A stretch of 64,000 bases of DNA, taken from NCBI GenBank assembly GCA_010093515.1, contig MU001705.1:132924-196923 (forward strand), written 5' to 3'. This document shows, piece after piece, positions 20,640 to 25,213 of the stretch (positions within the stretch are counted from its first letter, which is position 1; every line of letters starts with the position of its first letter). Below the pieces are notes generated by a model. The model made no database searches. It was not told the DNA's origin and was given only the letters and a program-made list of their open reading frames with translations. Source of the stretch: Lineolata rhizophorae. Lineage: Eukaryota; Ascomycota; Dothideomycetes; Lineolatales; Lineolataceae. The position numbers were made by a program, and so were the translations under genes.

Positions 20640-23600
20640 TTATGTAGAATGGTTTTTCAACTCAGGTCGCTTTTTCAGCGAATCCAGCACCGTTGCAGCA
20701 ACTGCAATAGCCTCCTCTGGCATGCCTAAGGGAATATTAGCTATGGCAACAATTCCTGTCACATGGGGTCTTCTTACCAGCAAAGCGTGCGACTTTCAGT
20801 GCATGACTTTCCTTGTTGATTCCTTTCTGTAGCCGATGTACGTAGACAAAGCTCTCTTTCCCATCTTCTAGCTCTTCCACGTCTGTGCAGTAGCACGCTA
20901 CCTTCTTCCACTCCTTGGTCATATCTGCAAGAGCGTGGAAGTGGGTTGCAAAAAGTGTCCGGCACTGATTCACGTGGTATAAGTGGTGCAAACAGGCAAA
21001 GCCTACTGCAATTCCATCTTCCGGTGTAGTGCCTCGTCCGACTTCATCCATGATAACCTACCAATATATCAGTTACTGCTCGTCCAACTTAGGTTAAAAG
21101 GAAAAGCAACGTACAAATGAACGGCTAGTAGCCTGCTTGAGAATCTCTGCAGTCTCGAGCATTTCCACCATAAATGTCGACTGGTCTTGATACAAATTGT
21201 CTGCCGACCCAACGCGACTGAATATTTTGTCAACTAGGCCGATCTCGGCATATTCAGCAGGCACAAAAGATCCGGTCTGCGCTAAAATTGATATCAGAGC
21301 ATTCTGGCGCAGAAATGTGCTTTTACCGCCCATGTTTGGGCCCGTGATAAGCAAGACCTGCTGCTCAGCGCCGACAAAGCAGTCGTTTGAAGTAAACGTC
21401 CTCCCTTGTTGAGACAATCCACCTTCGACCATTGGATGTCGTCCGCCAACAATCTTGTGCTCTGTACCAGTATTCAAGATTGGCCGGACTAGCCCCTGTA
21501 TGTTCGCAACGGTGGCAAACGAGCAGGCAACGTCCAATTCGTCTAGAACAGACGCATTACGACGAAGTTTGACCAAGTTGCGTATTACTCGAGTTCGCAG
21601 CTTACCAAATACCCGCAGTTCCTCGGCGCGAATCCTGTGTTTTGACTCATCGATCCGAGACCCGAGATGAGTCCATTTCGGAAGATGAAATGAACGCGTC
21701 GATTTGCTAGAGCTCACGCTGCGCGCAGACGATCCGAGTTTCGATATCAAAGAGTTCATGTCTTTGCCCTTGACATGACATATATGCCCTAGGCCTGGAG
21801 TCCACCGTAATGTCAAGCTAGCGGCTCCGAATTCCTCTCTAAGTTTGACTGCAAGCGCCGCCTTCTCATCTTTCAGTTCTTCCAATTCGGCGTGGAGTCG
21901 TTGAAGCGTAGTACTCGCGTTCTTCCGCATAACCCAAATCTCATCTCTGCCAATATCGACATCCTTGGGACTTACGGTCTCGCTGTTGCGTTGCTGGCTA
22001 GCTTTGGCCCTGATTCTCTTTGGAACCCCCGGCACCGGCTCGCCTGGTGCTTCTTCATTTATAATATCCGCGGCCATGTTCACCATAGCAGCCGCTTCGT
22101 TCTCTTCTAGCCTATGCTGTTCCGAAAGTCCCTCCTCGTCTATTGCGTCTAGAATTTTTGTGGCCAGCTTTGTCGGATCTGCGAGATCCAAGCTGTCAAC
22201 GATGCTCTCCAAGCACCGATATGTCTCCCTCGCGATCTTGCTGCCCATTACATCACTACTGCTCTCTTGTTTGCGGGCTGTGATATGCCGCTTAAGCACA
22301 GAGGCAAGTTCGTTGGTAATCTGGATCGTCCTTGACAAACCAAGCAAGTCGTCGGCGTCTCCTCGGCCAAAGGAGAACTTCTGAACCAGACGAAGTGTGT
22401 CGAACGTTCTTCGCAAGAGCGTCACGACTTGCTCGCGTAACACCTCGTAGTCGATCATTTCGGTAACCAAATCGAGTCGCTTGTTGATGATTTCTAGCGA
22501 CATTGATGGAGACGCTAGGAAAATCAGCATACGGATGCCCACTAAGCAATTTAACTCAAAGCTTACTGAGCCGTTGGCTAAGGAGCCTAGCACCACTCTT
22601 CGTCACAGTCTTGCGCACCGCATGCAGCAAGCTTCCCTCCAACCATCCATCTCGCAACGTTGTCTTGATTTCTAGTGCTCTTAGGCTGTTCTTGTCAATG
22701 CTCATATACTCATTTGCTTGACGTCGTACAGGCGCCCTAAGTTTCGCCTGAACCCCTTGCAATTGAGTCTTCACATAGTGAAGGAGGAAACTGCCGGCGG
22801 AAACTTCTGCTGGCGAAAAGGACGATGTATCCACTGTCACCGAAACGTCTTCAAGCATTGAGGACCAGTCCGCAACCGAGTCCTGTCCCAATGCCGCAGG
22901 GTGATACGTGATAACGTGTCGGTCTTCCCTTAGCATTGAAATAATTGTATCATGCTGCCCGTCCTTTAAGGCATCGTCTAGAACGATCTCGCGAGGTCCT
23001 ATTCGGGCAATGGTTGACGGCAACGAGGTCATGTCTGTCTCTTGGGTGAAGAAATCACCGCTTGATAAGTCGAGCCAAGCAAGTCCCACTTTTGGTTTCG
23101 CAATTCGTTCAGATGAACCGCTTGGCGAAGGCTTGCCATCTGTCGTTCTTTGGCGTTCCAGTGGTTCGACGTAAATGCTCAACAAAAAGTTGTTCTCCCA
23201 CGGATCCATGAACTTTTCATCAATTAAGGTTCCAGGAGTGATCACGCGAGTAATTTTCCGATCAAACATAAGGCCGCCTGACTTCGCTCTTTCCGCAGGA
23301 TCGTTCGGGAATTCTTCGCTAATAGCGACATACTTGCCAAAGTCTTGAACAAGAACTTTAAGAAAGCGGTCAAGTTGGAAGAAAGGAAAACCAGCCTAGA
23401 CGATAAGTCAGATAGGACAATTCGCGCATACTATGAAAAGCTGTAGAACATACCATGTACACTGGGCCAGCGTTTGTCTTTTTCTGAGCGACCTTCAAGT
23501 TCAGCATAGGACCAAGCTCCTCGGCTTGCTCAAAATACAGCTGTGACATACTTATTAGAAACCAACCGATCCGGTTTTGAATGCCGGTGATGCATACTTC

Positions 23601-23963
23601 ATAGAAATTCCCGACACGCGTCAGGACCACGCAGTGGTTAAACTTCCGCATATTATTGCGCGCCTGCTGTACCACGGTCGGGTACGCTGGCCGGTTCTCC
23701 TCCGCATCTTCGCCGTTATTCTCTTCTGCTTCAACTGGAAGTAATCCTTGCGGAAGATCGTCCAGTTTCAACGTTGTGCGCTTCCTTGCGCCGCGGACCT
23801 GAGTCTTCTCATGCCACGGACTAAAAATGCGCGCTTGGAGCGACGCGCCATCGTAAAACGAAGGTGAAGACAAGCACGCCGCCAACGGAAGGCACAGAGT
23901 TCGAGACAGTCTAAACGCACTAATGGGGCGCCGTATACACGAATTTGCGAGTCCGATGTGCAT
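20640..23963 (-). CDS. MSH1: Mitochondrial DNA mismatch repair protein MSH1 (MutS family)
   Basis: Predicted 1015-aa MutS homologue that guards mitochondrial DNA. Exons (- strand): 23963-23598, 23540-23454, 23395-22567, 22514-21115, 21057-20778, 20725-20640; total is divisible by three. The N-terminus is Arg-rich and acid-poor (CIRRPISAFRLSRTL), as for a mitochondrial presequence. The mispair-recognition motif FYE in LTRVGNFYE is split from LYFEQAEELGP by an intron. Then AGFPFFQLDRFLKVLVQD, KITRVITPGTLIDEKFMDP, Walker A GPNMGGKSTFLRQ (about residue 818), Walker B VIMDEVGRGT (about 894-903) and LFATHFHAL. The final exon completes the usual ending KVARFAGMPEEAI. Intron 1 (23597-23541, 57 nt) is in frame and stop-free. 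The gene is head to head with the ChaC gene. Confidence 0.93.
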
Positions 23964-24172
23964 CGTCTAGATGCATGGCCGAGTCTCCCGAACCAATCGA
24001 GGTGTCAAGGTGTCACGTCGACGCGTGGTCACGCTTTCGCTCTTCACGGCCGGCGCCAAGTCCGCTGTAGCGCTAGCGCATTGATGGCGTATCTTGCAAG
24101 CTCGGACCACGTGCTTGCGTTTGTCACTTTGGGATGACTATAGACCTTTCTTTTTCAACTACAGTCCATAAC
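23964..24172. promoter_or_regulatory. Compact divergent promoter MSH1/ChaC
   Basis: Only 209 bp separate the two start codons, so both promoters and 5' UTRs must share or overlap here. No TATA element is evident on either strand. Confidence 0.6.
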
Positions 24173-25213
24173 ATGGCTTCAGAAATTCCCAACGATGCCT
24201 TTTGGCTCTTTGGATATGGGTATGCTAGGCCTTTACTGCAGATGCAAGATTCCATGAGGTCCCACAAAACTCATGAAATTTATGAACAACAGAAGCTTGA
24301 TATGGAAACCCCCACCCCATTTCGGTATACATGCGTCCAAGCAAAGATGGAATGCCCACTTTGTCTAACTTTCTACGGAAGATGAACGAGTCCCAGGATA
24401 TATAGAAGGCTACGTACGCCGCTTTTGGCAGGTATGTGTAGGTTGACAGGACTCACTCATTTCGTCCTCGGATTGGTATAGCTAAGATTTCCAGTAGGCG
24501 AGGTACTCTCACATGCTGTCCCCAACTTCAGTATTGTTGCTAAGCTGTAATGCATAGCGAGGATCATCGCGGTACTCCGGAAGCGCCTGGCCGCGTTGTT
24601 ACGCTCATCGATCGCACCCACTGGGACACTCTCACAGACCACGTACGATTGCGCGTGATCCCCTTAAGTCCAAGAAAATCATTTACTAACGAGGAGCTAG
24701 CATTCTTCGCCGACTGAGCGCGTCTGGGGCGCTGCGTATCACATCCCGTCCTCGAAAGTGGCTGAGGTGCGCGAATACCTCGACATCCGCGAGATCAACG
24801 GGTACAGCATCCAGTACACGCCCTTCCACGCGGCAGGTCCCGTTGCAAACTCAACAGGCTCGGGCCCGATCCAATGCTTGGTCTACATCGGGCTACCGAG
24901 CAATCCTCAATTTCTGGGCCCTCAGGACCCTGACGCGCTTGCGGCTCACATTCTCAAAAGCAAAGGGCCGAGCGGAGAGAACAAGGAGTATTTGTACATG
25001 CTAGAAACGGCGTTGTTGAATTTGAGCGAGGAGAGTAGCGATGAGCACGTCAGTGATTTGGTGCGGAGATGCAGGAGCTTGGAGAGCGAACGCGGAAGTC
25101 AGAGCTTTGATAATAGGGCGCCATCGAACCAGGGTAGCCCTGGAGAAGTTCGCGAAGAGTTGCACAAGATTGGGAGTACAGAAGAACAAGAAGAAGTTGA
25201 AAAGACTACGTAA
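24173..25213 (+). CDS. GCG1: ChaC-like gamma-glutamylcyclotransferase (glutathione degradation)
   Basis: Predicted 237-aa cytosolic enzyme that cleaves glutathione to 5-oxoproline and Cys-Gly. Exons: 24173-24219, 24293-24324, 24382-24431, 24498-24502, 24558-24642, 24719-25213 (714 nt). The product has FWLFGYGSLIWKPPPHFDER, the fold's substrate-binding GYGSLIW, then VPGYIEGYVRRFWQ, ASEDHRGTPEAPGRVVTLID, RVWGAAYHIP and YLDIREINGY, in which the Glu after Arg is the expected catalytic acid. The conserved residues AS between FWQ and EDHRG come from a predicted exon of only five bases, GCGAG, between a TAG acceptor and a GTACTC donor. Both flanking introns (66 and 55 nt) contain GCTAAG branch-like sites. 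The start at 24173 fits the family; an in-frame ATG lies at 24134. The last 50 residues are variable and charged. Confidence 0.88.

Follow-up and report, generated by a model that had tools for sequence, protein, structure and literature searches.

A predicted five-nucleotide internal exon in the ChaC/GCG1 gene of Lineolata rhizophorae

Introduction

Exons of 1-6 nt have already been reported in plants and fungi, and the exon described in this work is a further, very small case. In plants, the 1-nt exon of Arabidopsis APC11 has been proven to be constitutive (PMC4674806), and exons of 1 and 5 nt have been validated by RT-PCR in a study that also documented, for 1-nt exons, how difficult such short exons are for aligners (PMC8831610). 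On the fungal side, the lipS genes of Dactylellina haptotyla are briefly mentioned as having two exons of 3 nt (PMC5639578), and the shortest microexon of the P450 genes of Phanerochaete chrysosporium measures 6 bp (PMC1184071). Larger examples include the exons of 16-21 nt in ascomycete H4E genes (PMC10878826) and the glucose-dependent 20-nt microexon of Xlr2 in Trichoderma virens, whose authors present functional microexons as previously undescribed in filamentous fungi (PMC11121469). In the literature searched, we found no report of this exon in a fungal ChaC gene.

Here, we examine a gene of the ascomycete Lineolata rhizophorae in which the reading frame is interrupted between two well-recognisable exons. 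As judged from its sequence, it is very probably an ordinary fungal ChaC/Gcg1 gene with a constitutive 5-nt internal exon, GCGAG. The exon is taken to be constitutive because its skipping would shift the frame.

Results

The analysed stretch of 64,000 nucleotides, hereafter the window, carries at 24173-25213 on the forward strand a ChaC/GCG1 gamma-glutamylcyclotransferase gene that is read as six exons (Table 1). Once joined, these exons form a CDS of 732 nt including the stop, rather than the 714 nt of the initial annotation, and encode 243 amino acids without internal stops. The spliced protein matches the Pfam ChaC family (PF04752) with 195.5 bits over residues 11-196, for a curated cut-off of 21, and it also matches the chains of two solved structures, human CHAC2 (E 3.7e-40) and yeast Gcg1 (E 2.8e-36). 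By sequence, the gene product is thus a ChaC/Gcg1-type enzyme, for which glutathione cleavage is predicted from the family. A six-frame search for the family across the 31-Mb genome, in which introns were ignored and through which a copy split into short exons could slip, returned this single locus. The domain match stops at residue 196, and the protein continues with a C-terminal tail of 47 residues (25070-25213) rich in Ser and Glu.

Table 1. Predicted exons and introns of the ChaC/GCG1 gene (positions in the window)
Feature	Position	Strand	Boundaries or basis
Exon 1	24173-24219	+	ATG to ...FGYG; Pfam match of the spliced protein
Intron 1, 73 nt	24220-24292	+	GTATGC...CAG
Exon 2 (SLIWKPPPHF)	24293-24324	+	rebuilds the GYGSLIW motif
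Intron 2, 57 nt	24325-24381	+	GTATAC...AAG
Exon 3 (DERVPGYIEGYVRRFWQ)	24382-24431	+	ends in phase 0
Intron 3, 66 nt	24432-24497	+	GTATGT...TAG; tandem acceptor CAG (24492-24494) TAG (24495-24497)
Microexon 4, GCGAG	24498-24502	+	with the following C, predicted to encode Ala-Ser
Intron 4, 55 nt	24503-24557	+	GTACTC...TAG; weak donor
Exon 5 (EDHRGTPEAPGRVVTLI...TDH)	24558-24642	+	reading frame of the joined exons
Intron 5, 58 nt	24643-24700	+	GTACGA...TAG; TACTAAC branch-like site
Exon 6, to stop TAA	24701-25213	+	reading frame; Pfam match

The neighbouring gene is divergent and lies on the reverse strand (22556-23966). Its frame at 22556-23395 matches MutS_I and MutS_II above the cut-off and MutS_III slightly below it, and the frame at 23370-23966, which has no Pfam match, is probably the N-terminal part of the same MutS-like gene. 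If so, about 200 bp separate this neighbour from the ChaC gene. We take the MutS-like gene to resemble mitochondrial MSH1.

The initial annotation had located the difficulty between exons 3 and 5, and its description of this interval holds: the exon ending in FWQ stops in phase 0, the next one opens with a C, the codon of which must take its first two bases from upstream, and TAG-GCGAG-GTACTC is present exactly where the five bases had been placed. If GCGAG is omitted, the frame is lost directly after FWQ; its inclusion restores both the frame and the conserved protein sequence. The rebuilt signature, FWQ-x-S-x-DHRG, is read as ...FWQ-Ala-Ser-EDHRG..., and the spliced protein contains the hallmarks of the ChaC family, i.e. 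the GYGSLI and FWQxSxDHRG signatures as well as the conserved Glu of the REINGY stretch. Alignment with CHAC2 and Gcg1 reveals G14-I19, Q43, S45, D47, H48, R49, G50 and E104 as invariant, the last one being the Glu of the REINGY stretch, which is presumably catalytic.

Further relatives were collected by scanning genome contigs with the three-sequence alignment, and the best 80 of the 579 found, all with bacterial titles, were kept; they inform the spacing of the protein only and not the conservation of introns. The arrangement Q-[G/A]-S-[H/T/E]-DHRG occurs with the same spacing in all 80, so that the Ala-Ser encoded by GCG-AG-C, as originally proposed, lies within the residue range of the family. 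Its Q belongs to FWQ in 78 and to FYQ in one of the 79 relatives that were scored by script among these best 80, and the 80th, checked by translation, reads FWQGSTDHRG. One of the two patterns used in the scan contained this motif; 58 of the 80 relatives carry only the other pattern and were therefore not selected for the signature. Protein-only scans of genome contigs and of viral contigs found no relative.

Splice signals were scored with a model self-trained on 264 kb of the genome, window included, from a guess at the fungal consensus, a start that may favour consensus sites. The fetched genome stretches contain 3,530 and 1,700 N, either withheld bases or gaps, which are unscored. The trained set comprises 114 introns, some of them doubtful, and 38 stricter ones, which are predictions and not RNA-confirmed introns, served as the reference. 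These span 45 to 127 nt (the selection rule excluded any above 130 nt) and display mostly GTRNGT donors, CTRAY-like branch sites and YAG acceptors. In the ChaC gene, GCGAG, which is well below the 15 nt taken as the upper limit for a spliceosomal microexon, is preceded by AG and followed by GT, and the flanking pieces have the annotated lengths of 66 and 55 nt and GT...AG ends, both within the sizes of the reference introns. Against the 38 predicted references, the splice total of intron 3 falls at the 34th percentile, an ordinary value; those of introns 1 and 5 rank at the 18th and 21st. Intron 4, with its donor GTACTC, scores 9.1, below all 38 predicted references, a value that 13% of 3000 randomly drawn GT-AG pairs reach or exceed. 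This weakness is not decisive because intron 2, which combines a weak donor GTATAC with an unusual AAG acceptor, also falls below all 38 references with an even lower score of 5.4, and its removal is required since read-through meets an in-frame stop.

The GCTAAG that had been put forward as a branch-like site is indeed present in both flanking introns (24481-24486 and 24539-24544), but its last base deviates from the CTRAY consensus, a G at that place being found in 4 of the 114 predicted branch sites. For intron 3, the model favoured a different branch site, located 43 nt away from the acceptor. The strongest argument against an efficient use of 24498 is the tandem acceptor of intron 3, CAGTAG (24492-24497). 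Splicing at the upstream CAG would place TAG in frame after FWQ, and a CAG/TAG-like tandem acceptor occurs in none of the 38 reference introns. The AG used is the first to follow the predicted branch site in 30 of these 38, and in 8 a further AG is located at most 20 nt upstream of it. The initial annotation mentioned neither this tandem nor the weak donor of intron 4.

We then compared the microexon with the other ways of reading the interval. Among the two-intron readings with GT-AG ends that keep the frame, a single one of 147 produces the signature, and its splice score is the highest of all; after admission of GC donors and of introns down to 30 nt, it is still the only one, now of 593. 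These totals, like the 38 readings of the shuffle comparison below, vary with the limits set on position, donor and intron length. The five-base exon is therefore the sole tested reading that gives the family sequence, and it does so with the best joint splice score, in agreement with the initial interpretation. The single-intron readings were listed for GT, GC or AT donors at 24390-24544 and acceptors up to 24624: 22 are in frame with GT/GC-AG or AT-AC ends, and none yields FWQxSxDHRG.

Three of the alternatives dispense with a separate exon. The first is a single intron of 130 nt (24432-24561) ending in GAG, with a protein reading FWQ-DHRGT without Ala-Ser-Glu. Such an intron preserves the frame, starts at the good donor GTATGT and reaches a splice total of 12.3, at the 8th percentile and inside the range of the predicted references. 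However, its GAG acceptor is poor (5th percentile), and it would delete the invariant Ser together with two neighbours from a spacing that CHAC2, Gcg1 and every one of the 80 retained bacterial relatives have in common; we regard it as very unlikely. The second alternative starts from contiguous removals of any kind, of which five restore FWQxSxDHRG, each of 121 nt. One of them begins at the strong donor GTATGT and would correspond to a single intron with a non-canonical acceptor (GT...TG, 24432-24552), the protein then reading FWQ-His-Ser-EDHRG or similar; an error of a base in the assembly could be invoked instead. Yet none of the five is GT-AG, and a His at the first x is absent from the relatives examined, which carry G, A or S. 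We regard this explanation as very unlikely too.

The third alternative treats the 126 nt as a single composite intron that is excised stepwise, a stwintron (nested twin intron). There is a resemblance, as two short introns are closely set at one place with almost nothing between them, like in the stwintrons of ascomycetes (PMC5639578). However, stwintrons are nested and leave no exon bases in the mRNA, whereas the ChaC interval would keep five. Moreover, the frame does not survive the removal of 24432-24557 as one piece, and no contiguous GT-AG removal yields the family sequence. We attach next to no probability to this reading of the interval.

The microexon reading was also confronted with chance by shuffling. 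The interval was subjected to 20,000 dinucleotide shuffles, of which 0.145% contained the strict pattern AG-GCN(AG/TC)-GT flanked on either side by 45 nt or more. The proportion rises to 0.7% with a less stringent choice of first residues and to 2.9% if any first residue is accepted. When the full search was repeated on shuffled intervals, FWQxSxDHRG with any residue at x was obtained in 288 of 2000 cases through one- and two-intron readings together (all 288 with two introns), and in 171 of 1500 through stop-free two-intron readings. Fits with any residue thus arise in 11-14% of shuffles, so that the signature taken by itself is less remarkable than it might seem at first sight. Restricting the first residue to A, G or S reduced the count to 23 of 1500, a family-like fit of this kind was the top-scoring reading in 3 of 1500, and only one of 1500 joined A/G/S with a splice score at least equal.

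These numbers bear on the possibility that the gene is a pseudogene in decay or carries a frameshift, in which case the five-base fit would be accidental. Several weak splice sites would be in line with decay, with introns 2 and 4 both under the whole set of 38 references, as would the frequency of family-like readings when any residue is allowed at x. On the other hand, the frame stays open elsewhere and retains conserved motifs, the gene is the sole ChaC match found in the genome, and the A/G/S fit with an equal splice score is as rare as stated above. Overall, the pseudogene explanation is highly improbable.

As to the origin of the two introns, the mature junction CAG-GCGAG-CGAGG has AG ahead of both insertion points, as expected of intron insertion sites. 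Introns 3 and 4 with a few exon bases align slightly better with each other than shuffles do (fraction 0.038 of 3000). A shared origin by duplication is not claimed, given that the introns alone score 19, inside the 12-24 range of the gene's other intron pairs. A second copy of the 141-bp region was searched for in the genome and none was found, which gives no support to a mobile (introner-like) origin.

Discussion

What can be read directly from the DNA is the frame, the fit of the protein to its family and the GT-AG boundaries of the microexon; from these we infer that both introns are removed, that each is recognised separately, that the exon is included and that it is conserved. Fungi generally pair splice sites across introns, a subject that a fission yeast study reportedly addressed. 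In the ChaC gene, introns 3 and 4 would each be recognised across the intron (intron definition), so that the 5-nt exon would need no recognition of its own. The removal of both introns would then join CAG-GCGAG-C and produce Ala-Ser. As skipping GCGAG or using the neighbouring AG would destroy the frame, inclusion must be the productive form.

The same fragility could be turned into a control. The microexon might operate as a gate on the sole ChaC enzyme found, with splicing efficiency setting the level of glutathione breakdown through the decay of faulty mRNA. The obvious mis-splicings would all be unproductive, the upstream CAG leading to FWQ-stop and skipping to a frameshift, and splicing efficiency could shift, for instance, under oxidative stress. 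We consider such a role very unlikely.

The constitutive microexon, if real, would be among the smallest internal exons proposed for a filamentous fungus and would offer a clean case of two introns that are dealt with independently, with hardly any exon sequence to separate them.

This gene also illustrates a practical issue for annotation. It had been anticipated that gene finders would call it truncated, and the self-trained finder did begin the gene at 24550, i.e. after the microexon. Since automatic models would tend to call the ChaC gene truncated or broken, conserved fungal genes that seem frameshifted merit a check for an exon of a few bases.

The closest described systems each share part of these features. 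The plant microexons are, like GCGAG, tiny, internal, missed by annotation, required for the frame and flanked by two introns; they are proven by cDNA, whereas the ChaC exon is predicted from sequence in one fungus (PMC4674806, PMC8831610). The P450 genes of Phanerochaete are, like the ChaC gene, fungal genes in which very short exons go with small introns, but they belong to a basidiomycete and were surveyed as a large gene family (PMC1184071). The lipS exons have in common with the ChaC exon a very small size and a filamentous ascomycete host, and differ from it by the gene concerned and by being even smaller than 5 nt (PMC5639578). Finally, the microexon of Xlr2 is four times longer than that of ChaC and depends on glucose, but both are frame-shifting microexons of filamentous ascomycetes, and that of Xlr2 was absent from the automatic gene model (PMC11121469).
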